Shown: one piece after another, positions 17,218 to 25,121 of the stretch | Layout: each line of letters opens with the position of its first letter | Position numbering within the stretch: the first letter of the stretch is position 1 | Source of the DNA: Frankia nepalensis | GTDB lineage: Bacteria; Actinomycetota; Actinomycetes; Frankiales; Frankiaceae | Direction of reading: 5' to 3' | Length of the DNA: 64,000 bases | NCBI RefSeq assembly: GCF_016786325.1 | Contig: NZ_JADWYU010000203.1 | Coordinates: 1 to 64,000 of the forward strand | The notes under the pieces: generated by a model | The model's database searches: none | Told to the model about the DNA's origin: nothing | The model's input: the letters and a program-made list of their open reading frames with translations, nothing else | Program-made: the position numbers and the translations under genes

Positions 17218-17705
17218 TGGTCCTCCTTTGCCGATGCGCTGGCAGCATCGCACGGGCGCGAGATAACGGGCGGTGAAGAATTCATGTTGTGGCGCGGAAC
17301 CGCCCCGGCTTCGACCCGCGGATCGTGACTGACGTCACGGGCGATCCCGCCCGCGTGAACGACGGTTCACCACCTGGGCGATCCGGTGGTCCGTCCGCCA
17401 CGCGGGATTCCGGCGCCCGGTGGCCGACGCCGGCGGGGTGACGAGGCGCCCGGCGGGTCCGCGCCAGGTCGGGACGCCGGCCGCCGATCGGCTCTGGACA
17501 CCGCCGGCCACCGGGGCGATCATCATGCCGCCCGCCTGAACGCTCCCGGCCGCGGTCTCGCCCGGCCAACCGCCGGTCGCCCGCCGCGGGCTGGCGGTGC
17601 CGGGCGCGCGGGCAGGGGCCGGTGGCGGCCGGACCGCGACCGCCCGCTTCGCGCGGTGACCAGATGCCCCGCGGCTGTACTGGGCCCACCCAAAAGATCT
17701 TGAGT
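17218..17705. other. Intergenic region between lysR and furA
   Basis: Nearly 490 bases without a credible gene. The right end carries the furA operator and promoter. The rest shows no clear inverted repeat; a LysR box (T-N11-A) for the divergent regulator cannot be singled out by eye. Confidence 0.4.
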
Positions 17706-17730
17706 GTTTTCTTGACTCGTTCAGGAAAAC
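17706..17730 (+). promoter_or_regulatory. FurA-type operator palindrome
   Basis: Arms GTTTTCTTGAC (17706-17716) and TTCAGGAAAAC (17720-17730) are inverted repeats matching at 9 of 11 positions around a 3-base centre. The AT-rich palindrome covers the -35 box of the furA promoter. FurA in related actinomycetes represses its own furA-katG operon, so this is very likely its binding site. Confidence 0.75.
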
Positions 17731-17740
17731 GGGGAACAGT
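17712..17740 (+). promoter_or_regulatory. furA-katG promoter (TTGACT-17-AACAGT)
   Basis: TTGACT at 17712-17717 and AACAGT at 17735-17740 are spaced by 17 bases. The predicted start lies at the GTG of furA at 17748, giving a leaderless transcript. The operator palindrome overlaps the -35 box. Confidence 0.65.
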
Positions 17741-17747
17741 GTGGGGC

Positions 17748-18179
17748 GTGCCCACGGCCTTGGACTTCGAGCGGATGCTGCGTGAGGTCGCGTTGCGGGT
17801 GACGCGTCCTCGGGTGGCGGTGCTGGGCGCGGTGTACGCGCATCCGCACGCCGACACGGACTCGATCATCGGCGCCGTGCGCGGCGAGCTGCCCGAGGTC
17901 TCGCACCAGGCCGTGTACGACTCGCTGCGCGTGCTGACGGCGGCGGGTCTCGTGCGGCGGATCCAGCCGTCCGGCTCGGTGGCCCGCTACGAGTCGCGGG
18001 TCGGCGACAACCACCATCACGTCGTGTGCCGGTCCTGCGGCGTCATCAGCGACGTCGACTGCGCCGTCGGCGAGGCGCCCTGCCTGACGGCCTCCGACGA
18101 CCGCGGCTTCCTGATCGACGAGGCCGAGGTCATCTACTGGGGCCTGTGCTCCGGCTGCTCCACCGCACCCAGTTCCTGA
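17748..18179 (+). CDS. furA: Ferric uptake-family redox regulator FurA
   Basis: A 143-residue Fur-family repressor. The winged-helix part ends with SHQAVYDSLRVLTAAGLVRRIQ (about residues 52-75); the dimerisation domain carries the metal motif GDNHHHVVCRSCG and a second Cys pair in CSGCS at the C-terminus. In actinomycetes FurA senses peroxide through metal and Cys chemistry and represses katG. Location directly before katG with a 25-base gap confirms the role. I prefer the GTG at 17748 because a promoter predicts transcription starting there; GTG 17739 would lie inside the -10 box. No ribosome site is needed for a leaderless gene. Confidence 0.9.
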   Translation: MPTALDFERMLREVALRVTRPRVAVLGAVYAHPHADTDSIIGAVRGELPEVSHQAVYDSLRVLTAAGLVRRIQPSGSVARYESRVGDNHHHVVCRSCGVISDVDCAVGEAPCLTASDDRGFLIDEAEVIYWGLCSGCSTAPSS

Positions 18180-18189
18180 TCAGTCCTGA

Positions 18190-20448
<2,259 letters not shown>

Positions 20449-20883: not shown

Positions 20884-23067
20884 GTGCGCCGTATCGCAGA
20901 GTTCGTACTTAACCATCGCAAGCTTGTCTTGATCGGCTGGCTTCTCGTCGTGGTCGCGGGCATCGCCCTGACCGGCCGGACCAATGATCGCCTGGTCATT
21001 GACTTTTCGTTGCCGGGACAACCAGGCACCGAGACGGCAAATCAGATCGACGAGGAGTTCAAGGCGGGTGGCAAGACCGCGCCCTATGTCGTGAGCGTCA
21101 CAATGCCGGCCGGCCAGGTCGTCACCGGCCAGGAGGCCGCTGTCGGGCGGGCATTCGCCGCCGTGCAGCAGGAGGTGCCGCAGACCCGGGTGATCGACGA
21201 GGCGAACACCGGTGACAAGGCCTTCCGGACCGGCGACGACCGCACGGCCTACGCACTCGTCTTCTACCGCTTCATGCACGACCCGACGGCGCCCTTCCCC
21301 ACCGACGCCATCACCGAGGCCCTGACGGCGGCGGCCCCCACGGGCGCGACGGTCGGCGTCACCGGAGAGGACGCCCTGGCCATCGGCGACGCCGAGGGCG
21401 GCGGGGCCAGCGTGCTCATCGAGGTGCTCTTCGGCGCCCTCGGCGCGCTCGTGGTGCTCGCCTTCGTCTTCGCGTCGTTCCTGGCGTTCCTGCCGCTGGT
21501 CGTCGCGGCGGTCTCGATCCTGACCACGTTCATCCTGCTGCTGCCGCTGACCTACCTCACCGACGTCTCGTTCATCGTCGAGTTCCTGATCGCGCTCATC
21601 GGCCTCGGGGTGGCGATCGACTACTCGCTCATCCTGGTCACCCGGTGGCGCGAGGAGCGCGACCACGGCCGCGACAACCACGAGGCGGTCGTGGTGGCCA
21701 TGCAGACGGCGGGCCACGCGGTGATGTTCAGCGGCATCACGGTGGCCATCGGGCTGCTTGCCCTCGTCGTGCTTCCCGTGCCGTTCATGCGCAGCATCGG
21801 CCTGGGCGGCGCGCTGATTCCGCTGGCCAGCGTGCTGACGACGCTGACGCTGACGCCGGCCATCCTCGGTGGCATCGGCCCGAAGGTCGACTGGCCGAAG
21901 ATCCGGCACGAGAACCGCGCCGGCAAGGCGTGGACCCGATGGGCCAGGGGCGTGGTGCGGCACCGGATCCTCTCGACGGGGGTGGCGCTGCTCGCCCTCG
22001 GCCTGCTGGTCGCCGCGTTCTTCGGCATCAAGATCGGCCTGGCCTCGTCCTCGTCGCTGGCCAAGAACGGGCCGGCCTACACGGCGTTCGAGACGCTGAA
22101 GGCCGGCGGTGTGCCGACCGGCGTCCTGACCCCGATGGAGGTGCTGGTCGACACGCCGCGGGCCGAGTCGGTCGCCGCGGCGCTGCGCGACGTCCCGGGC
22201 GTCGACCGGGCGGTGGTGGCGACCGGCGACGGGCAGTCGGTGAACGGGCACAGCATCGTGGTGGTGATTCCCGACTCGGAGACCGTCAACTCGTCGTCCA
22301 TCCAACCGGTGCGCGACGTCAAGGAGGTCGTGGCCGACCTGCCGGGGGTCGTCGGCGTCGCCGGCATCGGCGCGGACCAGATCGACTTCCTGAAGGCGGT
22401 CTACGGCAACTTCCCGCTGATGCTCACGATCATCGCGCTGCTGACCTTCATCCTCCTGGTGCGCGCCTTCCGGTCGATCCTGCTGCCGATCAAGGCAATC
22501 CTTCTCAACCTGGTCACGCTCGGCGCGACGCTCGGCTTCATGGTGCTGTTCTGGCAGAACGGGTTCGGGTCCGACACGATCTTCGGGGTGGACGAGACCG
22601 GAGCGGTGACCTTCTGGCTCCCGCTGATGGTGTTCGCGTTCCTCTTCGGCCTGTCGATGGACTACGAGGTGTTCATCCTGGCCCGGGTCCGTGAGGAGTA
22701 CGACCGGACGGGGAACACCGATGACGCCGTCGTCGAGGGAATCGGGCGCACCGGCCGGCTCGTGACCAGCGCCGCGCTGATCCTGTTCCTGGCGTTCCTC
22801 GCGCTCGCCACCGGGCCAGGCACCGACCTGAAGACGTTCGCGACCGCGCTCGGCTTCGGCATCCTGCTCGACGCGACCATTGTGCGGTCCGTGCTGGTGC
22901 CGGCGCTCGTCTCCCTGTTCGGCCAGTGGAACTGGTGGCTGCCCGACTGGGTGGCCCGCGTGCTGCGGATACCGCCGTCGCGCCCGATCGAACCGGCCGT
23001 CGTCGGCGACGCGGTCGCGGTACCCGAGCCACGGGGTTCATCCAGCCCATCCAGCGTGTCCGAATGA
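20884..23067 (+). CDS. MMPL/RND-family membrane transporter
   Basis: A 727-residue RND-type transporter with duplicated halves, each expected to hold one membrane helix, a periplasmic domain and five more helices. Clear signs are GVAIDYSLILVTRWREER in the first half (near residues 243-260) and FLFGLSMDYEVFILARVREEY in the second (near 585-605), which carry the proton-relay Asp-Tyr pairs. The family exports lipids, polyketides or drugs using the proton gradient. GTG 20884 follows GGCAGGGGGG. A short inverted repeat GCTGAT/ATCAGC at 20853-20867 sits just before the ribosome site. No cargo gene is nearby, so the substrate is open. Confidence 0.9.
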   Translation: MRRIAEFVLNHRKLVLIGWLLVVVAGIALTGRTNDRLVIDFSLPGQPGTETANQIDEEFKAGGKTAPYVVSVTMPAGQVVTGQEAAVGRAFAAVQQEVPQTRVIDEANTGDKAFRTGDDRTAYALVFYRFMHDPTAPFPTDAITEALTAAAPTGATVGVTGEDALAIGDAEGGGASVLIEVLFGALGALVVLAFVFASFLAFLPLVVAAVSILTTFILLLPLTYLTDVSFIVEFLIALIGLGVAIDYSLILVTRWREERDHGRDNHEAVVVAMQTAGHAVMFSGITVAIGLLALVVLPVPFMRSIGLGGALIPLASVLTTLTLTPAILGGIGPKVDWPKIRHENRAGKAWTRWARGVVRHRILSTGVALLALGLLVAAFFGIKIGLASSSSLAKNGPAYTAFETLKAGGVPTGVLTPMEVLVDTPRAESVAAALRDVPGVDRAVVATGDGQSVNGHSIVVVIPDSETVNSSSIQPVRDVKEVVADLPGVVGVAGIGADQIDFLKAVYGNFPLMLTIIALLTFILLVRAFRSILLPIKAILLNLVTLGATLGFMVLFWQNGFGSDTIFGVDETGAVTFWLPLMVFAFLFGLSMDYEVFILARVREEYDRTGNTDDAVVEGIGRTGRLVTSAALILFLAFLALATGPGTDLKTFATALGFGILLDATIVRSVLVPALVSLFGQWNWWLPDWVARVLRIPPSRPIEPAVVGDAVAVPEPRGSSSPSSVSE

Positions 23068-23145
23068 TCCGAGCAACGGCGCCGTAGACCCGCGCCACCG
23101 CGGTAACCCGCGCCACCGCGGTAACCCGCGGCGAGCAAGACACCG

Positions 23146-23175
23146 GCCCGGCGGAACCCCATGGTTCCGCCGGGC
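23146..23175 (+). terminator. Terminator hairpin after MMPL gene
   Basis: A 13-bp perfect stem (23146-23158 with 23163-23175) and a CCAT loop, about 80 bases after the MMPL stop. Just before it the unit TAACCCGCGCCACCGCGG is repeated. Confidence 0.8.
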
Positions 23176-23253
23176 TGACTCGTTCCCGGGTCTTCGAGAT
23201 CCGTCGCCGCCCGCTCACGCCACCCAAGGCGGCGCGGATACCGGCGTCGTCGG

Positions 23254-23284
23254 TTGACCTCAACCACGGTTGAACAGCCAGGCT
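23254..23284 (+). promoter_or_regulatory. SoxR/MerR-type promoter with palindrome in a 19-bp spacer
   Basis: TTGACC (-35, 23254-23259) and CAGGCT (-10, 23279-23284) are 19 bases apart, the long spacing used by MerR-family activators. Within it CCTCAACCACGGTTGAAC (23258-23275) contains TCAACC/GGTTGA and resembles the SoxR box consensus CCTCAA...TTGAGG. It precedes a quinone oxidoreductase gene, a class of target known for SoxR in streptomycetes. Confidence 0.65.
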
Positions 23285-23317
23285 CGATCGCGGTTACCGA
23301 CGACGAAGGGACACCCG

Positions 23318-24232
23318 ATGAGAGCCGCGGCGTTCACCGAGCCTGGCGGACCGGACGTACTCAGGCTGATGGACCTGGACACCCCGCACGCCGGCGCCGG
23401 CCAGGTCCGGGTCCGGATCAGGGCGGCCGGGGTCCAGCCGGTCGACTGCGCGGTGCGGGCCGGCCGGACCCCGCCCTGGATGGCGCAGGACCCACCGACG
23501 ATTCCCGGGAACGAGTTCGCCGGAGTCATCGACGAGGTGGGCCAGGGGGTGGCGGCCGGACTGATGGTGGGCGGCGAGGTGCTCGGCTTCGGGCGCCTCG
23601 GCGCCTACGCCGAGTATCTCGTGGTCCCGGCCGACCAGGTGACGGCCAAGCCGGCGGCGATGCCCTGGGAGGTCGCCGGCGGATTCAGCGGCGGCGCCCA
23701 GACCGCCCACATAGCCCTGCGGGAGCTCGCCGTGGGCAAGGGCGACACCCTGCTGATCCACGGCGCGGCGGGCGCGGTCGGCACCGTCGCCACGCAGCTG
23801 GCCGCGCGGTGGGGGGCGACCGTCATCGGCACCGCGAGCGCGGCCAACCACGACTACCTGCGCTCGCTCGGCGCGCTCCCGGTGGCCTATGGCGACGGCC
23901 TGCTCGCCCGGGTGCGCGCGCTCGCGCCGGACGGGGTGGACGCGGTCCTCGACGGCGCCGGCGGCGACGCGCTCACCGCCTCGCTCGCCCTCGTGGCCGA
24001 CCGGTCCCGCGTCCTCACGCTGGTCGAACACGCCAAGGCACCCGGACTCGGCATCCGGACCACCCCGAACCTGCGCTCGTCGGCCCGGCTCGCCGAGCTC
24101 GCCCGCCTGTACGCGGACGGCCAGCTACATGTCCAGATCCGGCGGGTGTTCCCCCTGGGCCGCGCGGCCGACGCGCACCGCGACGTCGAGACGGGCCACG
24201 GGCGCGGCAAGGTCGTCCTTCTCGTCGACTAA
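23318..24232 (+). CDS. Quinone oxidoreductase-like MDR dehydrogenase
   Basis: A 304-residue medium-chain dehydrogenase/reductase of the zinc-free quinone oxidoreductase group. The substrate domain ends with IPGNEFAGVIDEVG near residue 65; the Rossmann motif LLIHGAAGAVGTVATQLA lies near 150. The expected role is NADPH-dependent reduction of quinones or enones, useful against redox-cycling compounds. The ATG at 23318 follows GAAGGG and begins the conserved MRAAAFTEPGGPDVL; an upstream in-frame start would lie inside the promoter. Control by a SoxR-like box fits this role. Confidence 0.88.
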   Translation: MRAAAFTEPGGPDVLRLMDLDTPHAGAGQVRVRIRAAGVQPVDCAVRAGRTPPWMAQDPPTIPGNEFAGVIDEVGQGVAAGLMVGGEVLGFGRLGAYAEYLVVPADQVTAKPAAMPWEVAGGFSGGAQTAHIALRELAVGKGDTLLIHGAAGAVGTVATQLAARWGATVIGTASAANHDYLRSLGALPVAYGDGLLARVRALAPDGVDAVLDGAGGDALTASLALVADRSRVLTLVEHAKAPGLGIRTTPNLRSSARLAELARLYADGQLHVQIRRVFPLGRAADAHRDVETGHGRGKVVLLVD

Positions 24233-24293: not shown

Positions 24294-25121
24294 TCAGGAA
24301 GCGCGGGACATGGCCCGGGTGCCGACGACGAGGCCGAGGGCGGCGACGGCGCCGGCGGCGAGCAGGCCCCACAGCGTGTCCGCGGCGAGGACCTCGCCGG
24401 CGAACAGGCGGCGCTCCGCGTCGACGACGTAGCTCAGCGGGTTGGCCGCCGAGAGCGCCTTCAGCCACCCGGGGGCGTCGTCGAGCGGGAGCAGGACCCC
24501 GGCGAGCAGGAGGAGCGGGAACAGCAGCGTCTGCTGGACAGCCCAGAACAGCCACGTCTGCTGGGCGGAGGCCAGCGCGAGCGCGTACGACAGGGCGCCG
24601 AGCCCGACGCACAGCAGGGACAGGATCAGCAGGCCGACGAGCACGCCGCCGACGTGCAGGTCGAAGCTGAACGGCACGCAGATCACCACGATGATCAGCG
24701 CCTGGACGAACGTCGGCGCGATCTCCTTCAGCGCCCGGCCGAGCAGCAGCGCCGGCCGGCGCAGTGGCGTCACCAGCATGCGCTCGTGCGAGCCGGTCTG
24801 GATCTCGAAGAGCAGGTTCGACCCGGTCATCGACGTGCCGAACAGGCACGACATCACCACGATGCCGGGCACGAACCACTGCAGCGCCGAGCCGCCGTCG
24901 TCGGCCTTCGGCAGCAGCGGGGCGAACAGCGCCAGGAAGAACAGCGGTTGGATCATGCTGAAGATGACCGAGAACGGGTCACGCAGCATCGGGCGCAGCT
25001 CACGGACGAAGACGGTGACCGTGTCTGTCAGCAGGGTGGTGCGGCCCGTGGGCGCGTCGGCGTCGGCCTCGCGGGCGACGTCGGTCGGCCCACCGGTCTC
25101 GGTGATCGTCGCGGTGGTCAT
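24294..25121 (-). CDS. ABC-2 type permease (DrrB-like)
   Basis: A 275-residue integral membrane protein of the ABC-2 exporter family. After a cytoplasmic N-terminus, VFVRELRPMLRDPFSVIFSMIQPLFFLALFAPLL forms the first helix, followed by the family motif GSNLLFEIQTGSHERMLVTPLRRPALLLGRALKE near residues 105-140; five more helices follow. It overlaps the ATPase gene by four bases (ATGA at 25118-25121). Together they resemble DrrAB daunorubicin exporters, so drug or metabolite efflux is likely. Confidence 0.9.
   Translation of the reverse strand: MTTATITETGGPTDVAREADADAPTGRTTLLTDTVTVFVRELRPMLRDPFSVIFSMIQPLFFLALFAPLLPKADDGGSALQWFVPGIVVMSCLFGTSMTGSNLLFEIQTGSHERMLVTPLRRPALLLGRALKEIAPTFVQALIIVVICVPFSFDLHVGGVLVGLLILSLLCVGLGALSYALALASAQQTWLFWAVQQTLLFPLLLLAGVLLPLDDAPGWLKALSAANPLSYVVDAERRLFAGEVLAADTLWGLLAAGAVAALGLVVGTRAMSRAS

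Follow-up and report, generated by a model that had tools for sequence, protein, structure and literature searches.

A probable SoxR-dependent promoter in front of a quinone oxidoreductase gene of Frankia nepalensis

MerR proteins distort DNA to act on promoters with 19-20 bp spacers (PMC9909328), and one such regulator, SoxR, has a regulon in Streptomyces coelicolor that is described as comprising an ABC transporter, a flavoprotein reductase, an epimerase/dehydratase, an oxidoreductase, a monooxygenase and the quinone oxidoreductase SCO0320ext (PMC4146615). The SCO0320ext promoter is bound by SoxR in EMSA at 5-10 nM, and a soxbox is found in only 23 percent of SCO0320ext homologs across 55 Streptomyces species (PMC4146615). 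Reported inducers of S. coelicolor SoxR are actinorhodin, pyocyanin, phenazine methosulfate, plumbagin and benzoquinone, whereas paraquat and menadione bisulfite are reported not to activate it (PMC5288332). Outside the actinobacteria, SoxR boxes are given as CCTCAAGTTAACTTGAGG for E. coli and as CCTCAACTGCAGTTGAGG, in a 19-bp spacer, for the mfsA promoter of Stenotrophomonas maltophilia (PMC4411124).

Here we examine a 64,000-nucleotide stretch of the Frankia nepalensis genome (the window), in which a sequence-only reading had pointed to a SoxR-like box ahead of a quinone oxidoreductase gene (QOR). We propose, with high confidence, that this element is a SoxR-dependent promoter that switches on QOR. 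The target class fits the streptomycete SoxR regulon, as had been claimed, since the S. coelicolor set in PMC4146615 includes a quinone oxidoreductase, although the host here belongs to the Frankiaceae and is not a streptomycete. SCO0320ext and the window QOR are alike in that a quinone oxidoreductase promoter with a SoxR box is found in an antibiotic-producing actinomycete, a likeness of class and not of orthology; they differ in that SCO0320ext is described as frameshifted in S. coelicolor while the window QOR frame is open over 304 aa, and in bacterial family. The classes of four further S. coelicolor targets, SCO2478 (flavoprotein reductase), SCO7008 (ABC transporter), SCO1178 (NAD-dependent epimerase/dehydratase) and SCO4266 (oxidoreductase), as named in PMC4146615, are also boxed in the F. 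nepalensis genome, again a match by class only, whereas for the sixth class, monooxygenase (SCO1909), no boxed gene was seen there. As for the box itself, 13 of the 18 bases of the reported mfsA box equal those of the window box, but the gene served there, which is divergent from soxR, encodes an MFS pump, and the host is Gram-negative. The E. coli box as given in PMC4411124 has the left arm CCTCAA and the right-hand TTGA in common with the window box, but the inner six bases are GTTAAC in E. coli and CCACGG in the window, where the right arm is imperfect. Moreover, the E. coli SoxR target is a regulator gene, soxS, whereas here it is an enzyme gene. Literature searches for SoxR with Frankia, or with polyketide and quinone oxidoreductase, returned nothing visibly on such a promoter.

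The promoter and its target gene

The window box is real and its coordinates are exact (Table 1). Six of the nine arm pairs of CCTCAACCACGGTTGAAC match, the mismatched ones being the two outermost and the central pair, and the dyad thus has a good inner part (TCAACC..GGTTGA) and an imperfect outer part. Measured against the arms CCTCAA and TTGAGG, the left arm is identical (6/6) and the right arm agrees at 4/6 positions (TTGAAC); the box of the soxR-divergent gene in the same genome likewise deviates here (TTGAAG). Identity to the E. coli SoxR consensus is 10/18, a score reached at 154 positions on the two window strands, with 20 more scoring 11. Since such scores are common in the window, a match to this consensus alone is not above chance and is weak evidence by itself, and the consensus was dropped as sole yardstick. 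The pattern TTGACCTCAAN6TTGAGG, with up to 3 mismatches, has one match in the window (2 mismatches) versus 0.10 expected, and 10 of 100 shuffles gave a match.

Table 1. Features of the QOR promoter region, in window coordinates
Feature	Position	Strand	Remarks
Hairpin, 13 bp, perfect; possible terminator	23146..23175	+	Separates the MMPL gene from the QOR promoter; no T run behind it
-35 hexamer TTGACC	23254..23259	+	Read directly; TTGA invariant in 20/20 boxed QOR promoters
SoxR-type box CCTCAACCACGGTTGAAC	23258..23275	+	Dyad overlapping the -35, within the 19-bp spacer; kept in orthologs
-10 hexamer CAGGCT	23279..23284	+	Spacer of 19 bp to the -35; xAxxxT with A and T invariant in 20/20 boxed QOR promoters
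Shine-Dalgarno-like GAAGGGA	23305..23311	+	6 nt ahead of the ATG; read directly, putative function
QOR, MDR-superfamily quinone oxidoreductase of 304 aa; target gene	23318..24232	+	PF08240, PF13602 and PF00107 over cut-off
ABC-2 type permease; convergent neighbour of QOR	24294-25121	-	Nearest models are drug exporters

The -10 hexamer CAGGCT lies 33 bp ahead of the QOR start codon (23318). The encoded protein combines ADH_N and zinc-binding-dehydrogenase domains, and its best PDB match is the quinone oxidoreductase 3tqh (E 1.3e-34). Its nearest NCBIfam model, TIGR02824 (PIG3), scores 153.8 bits, below the curated cut-off of 296.8, and the protein is thus an MDR superfamily relative of PIG3 and not a member. 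Upstream, an MMPL transporter gene runs in the same direction as QOR and ends at 23067; as a strong hairpin (fold of 23140-23190: -35.7 kcal/mol, z -5.07) precedes the promoter, QOR is probably its own transcription unit. One may argue that SoxR bound at this site does not activate QOR but acts as a repressor or controls another unit, as a SoxR box over the start site is reported to repress soxR in S. maltophilia (PMC4411124). This is highly unlikely, however, because a box between -35 and -10 at 19 bp is the activating layout in that report and points to QOR, and because the co-directional MMPL gene ends before the hairpin.

Two other features of the surroundings may be recorded. Just 3' of the MMPL gene, at 23088-23123, the 18-bp sequence ACCCGCGCCACCGCGGTA occurs in two exact tandem copies, and about 3 kb upstream of QOR (17622-20448) a gene for a Fur-family regulator is followed by one for a katG-type catalase-peroxidase (18205-20448).

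Conservation of the box among QOR loci

To place the box in a wider context, QOR was searched in 35 family genomes, 26 of which matched at 1e-40, and in named GTDB genomes (97 relatives, 80 kept). Counting that of the window, 110 QOR loci were scanned, and 20 of them have a box, scored as at least 13/16 positions within 500 bp upstream. A tree was built from 60 of these loci, omitting L068 and L104-L152; it unites every boxed QOR in one group of 28 (branch support 100/98), and the other 32 tree rows contain no boxed locus. Three near-copy pairs among them (L046/L069, L050/L051 and L047/L048) leave about 17 of the 20 as independent. The boxed promoters are drawn from several actinobacterial families, their flanking bases are far more variable than the -35, the arms and the -10, and the distance from -10 to start codon ranges from 7 to 144 bp. 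An xAxxxT motif stands at exactly 19 bp in all 20, with A and T invariant, though the -10 played no part in their selection; in the window, as the sequence-only reading had stated, the palindrome lies between a -35 and a -10 with MerR-type spacing. In addition, when the consensus was shuffled 200 times, the number of the 20 loci reaching the box score averaged 0.005 and never exceeded 1.

It is this conservation that lifts the window box above chance. The dyad could be a chance palindrome before a constitutive gene, given how common a 10/18 identity to the E. coli consensus is in the window, how the single pattern match compares with 0.10 expected, and that 8 of the 28 members of the boxed clade are without a box. 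Yet a -35, arms and -10 retained by 20 promoters of several actinobacterial families, between flanks that vary much more, make a conserved footprint that rules such a coincidence out for practical purposes. Boxless relatives are known in Streptomyces too, as the 23 percent of SCO0320ext homologs with a soxbox indicates. The SoxR test covered six of the boxless clade members (L070, L075, L078, L086, L087 and L088), and all six are in genomes with SoxR; the other two, L083 and L084, are from Paenibacillaceae. As for the genus, its seven other genomes give matches to QOR of 44% identity at most (E 1e-40), and two of them give none.

SoxR and further boxes in the genome

The F. nepalensis assembly (G000; 10.7 Mb, 398 contigs, 96.8% complete) contains 22 MerR-domain matches. 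The SoxR model gives 15 matches at E <=0.001, only one of which is over the curated cut-off, at C11:44938-45357 (190.6 bits versus 116.9), so the genome search suggested by the sequence-only reading does find a SoxR. Its absence from the window had also been stated correctly: contig C209 has no MerR or SoxR match, all being on other contigs. The C11 protein has the [2Fe-2S] motif CX2CXCX5C (CIGCGCLSFDRC), aligns with E. coli SoxR (2zhg) over 137 residues at 137.5 bits with the four cluster cysteines kept, and is alone among 21 aligned MerR proteins in having the helix SALRFYE. Its gene is divergent from one for an NADPH-dependent FMN reductase (PF03358), whose promoter reads TGGACC - 19 bp - CAGGCT. 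QOR and this soxR-divergent gene have the box in common: CCTCAACCTTTGTTGAAG equals the window box at 14 of 18 bases, and the two -10 hexamers are identical. When the 22 MerR loci were scanned with flanks of about 1.5 kb (less at one locus), a box of at least 13/16 was found at the SoxR locus only, with a score of 14. Two loci score 12/16, of which L012 has different arms (CTTCGAG/CTCGAAG) and L018 is without a TTGAC -35.

SoxR is over cut-off in 30 of the 35 family genomes and in 14 of 14 named genomes, and it is present in every one of the 19 genomes whose QOR is boxed. A box of at least 13/16 beside soxR is nevertheless not general, being found at 5 of 30 family soxR loci and 8 of 20 in named genomes. 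The soxR loci of three same-genus genomes (L157-L159 in G029, G031 and G033) carry TTGACTTCAAGTTAACTTGAAG or a one-base variant with an E. coli-like GTTAAC centre, and soxR-linked boxes thus vary within the genus. No soxR was found in the 1.5-2 kb flanks of the 20 boxed QOR loci, the nearest one seen being about 13 kb off, in G010. A neighbouring MerR gene was considered as regulator of QOR and set aside: a search around 32 of the 110 QOR loci gave a single flanking MerR-like ORF (Kitasatospora, L080), whose best match is not SoxR and which an opposite-strand ORF separates from QOR.

A genome-wide search with TTGACCTCAAN6TTGARG (up to 3 mismatches) gave 35 matches, versus 11 for the reversed control pattern. 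Five sites have intact CCTCAA..TTGA: those of QOR, the FMN reductase divergent from soxR, an NmrA-like gene on C341, an ABC exporter gene on C380, and a fifth on C347. The last (C347:32174, CCTCAACCTTTTTTGA) is without a -35 and, by the ORF filter applied, without a coding-like ORF within about 2 kb, and was taken as chance. Further copies of the box, which the sequence-only reading had proposed to look for, are thus present with intact arms and a -35 at the FMN reductase, ABC exporter and NmrA-like genes. Two of these targets, the exporter and the FMN reductase, were checked in 22 further genomes, where, own loci included, 11 of 29 loci of the exporter and 8 of 30 of the FMN reductase have the box. 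All 39 boxes of the QOR, exporter and FMN-reductase families have xAxxxT at 19 bp. Moreover, in G022 and G017 the FMN reductase gene is divergent from QOR, with the boxes back-to-back; soxR beside the FMN reductase here and the FMN reductase beside QOR in relatives form a linking chain. In G022, a neighbour of this boxed pair (L216:5080-5802) encodes a TNT-type domain (PF14021).

Two broader comparisons are less telling. Of the 35 family genomes, 23 match the pattern with one mismatch or none; such a match is absent from the 4 genomes that gave no SoxR match and also from 8 of the 31 with SoxR, a tally that is confounded with genome size and kinship and is not used as proof. Within the same genome, the likeness of the QOR box to the soxR-adjacent box is 74 versus a permuted mean of 67, with 2.2% of permutations as high. 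As this test covers six hand-picked genomes, three of which are closely related, and omits further soxR copies and weaker boxes (G035, G041), the likeness is only suggestive.

Four more sites have one mismatch, the same count as the window site, and stand before a patatin gene, two PPOX-like genes (one Pfam-confirmed) and a SnoaL-like gene. Other MerR proteins may therefore read similar boxes, which slightly lowers our confidence in the SoxR reading. TTGACCTCAA promoters, probably leaderless, were seen at L182, L184-L187 and L195-L198 (G000 contigs 341, 11, 99, 109, 114, 342, 360, 371 and 380). In 9 of 14 sites examined, 34-39 nt separate the first T of TTGACC from the start codon of the longest frame, which is then 3-8 nt past the -10. 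The Pfam classes at the 8 scanned sites are NmrA, patatin, PNPOx, SnoaL/DUF4440 (two), glyoxalase, SDR and erythromycin esterase; L190 and L194 (doubtful frames) and L191-L193 (seemingly inside coding sequence) were left out of this classing. The regulator of these promoters may be SoxR or another MerR protein.

Hence the main competing explanation is that another MerR-family activator with a similar recognition sequence drives QOR, perhaps sensing an electrophile or a drug. The genome offers 22 MerR-domain matches for this role, and besides that of NmrA there are eight TTGACCTCAA-type promoters, whose genes are of the patatin, PPOX-like, SnoaL/DUF4440, VOC, SDR and erythromycin-esterase classes. 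No MerR match of the genome is within 10 kb of those promoters, so a distant regulator would be needed there too. We regard such an activator as improbable, because among the MerR loci only that of SoxR has a box of at least 13/16, only SoxR has the SALRFYE helix among the 21 aligned proteins, the boxed genes fit known SoxR target classes, and SoxR accompanies the boxed QOR in 19 of 19 genomes. Thus, the SoxR interpretation of the sequence-only reading is supported and very probably correct.

Proposed mechanism and polyketide context

From the arrangement of promoter, regulator and target we infer SoxR binding, activation, inducer and substrate as follows. A reduced SoxR dimer would sit on the dyad, where the over-long 19-bp spacer would leave RNA polymerase unable to use the -35 and -10 together. 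A redox-active compound, such as a quinone, phenazine or aromatic polyketide of the cell or a neighbour, would oxidise the [2Fe-2S] clusters, and oxidised SoxR would distort the DNA, realign TTGACC with CAGGCT and so switch QOR on. QOR may then reduce or tailor the inducing quinone-like compound. The same small regulon would include the FMN reductase, the ABC exporter and probably the NmrA-like dehydrogenase.

In two relatives, the boxed QOR is within a type II polyketide cluster. In G003 (L214) it adjoins a pair of neighbouring ketosynthase genes, from their layout KS-alpha and KS-beta, together with acyl-CoA dehydrogenase, SDR and SnoaL-like genes, and the genes of this cluster are present in G010 at about 97-98% identity (L212, G010:C337:5001-25000). 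The G010 contig also carries a second SoxR about 13 kb from QOR, two further boxes, and glycosyltransferase and aminotransferase genes. In the window, no ketosynthase was found among the 24 genes run against Pfam, and the two ketosynthases used as queries gave no match there. The F. nepalensis genome does have paired ketosynthase genes on C34 (best match at 62% identity), which makes a home-made aromatic inducer possible; none of its 35 pattern sites is on C34. Tentatively, and as a conjecture that is possible rather than probable, the boxed QOR clade might be a portable promoter-plus-enzyme cassette of aromatic-polyketide biology, which moves between type II polyketide clusters (as in G003 and G010) and stand-alone sites like the window, keeps its SoxR switch, and modifies the redox-active polyketide of its own cell or a neighbour only when that compound is present.

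In summary, SoxR regulons linked to antibiotics are described in Streptomyces and Pseudomonas, and such a regulon very probably exists in a Frankiaceae genome too, for which QOR, the FMN reductase, the ABC exporter and the NmrA-like gene are named as testable candidate SoxR targets. In addition, since two relatives have members of this QOR clade within type II polyketide clusters, these clusters could help to identify the aromatic metabolites that SoxR senses.
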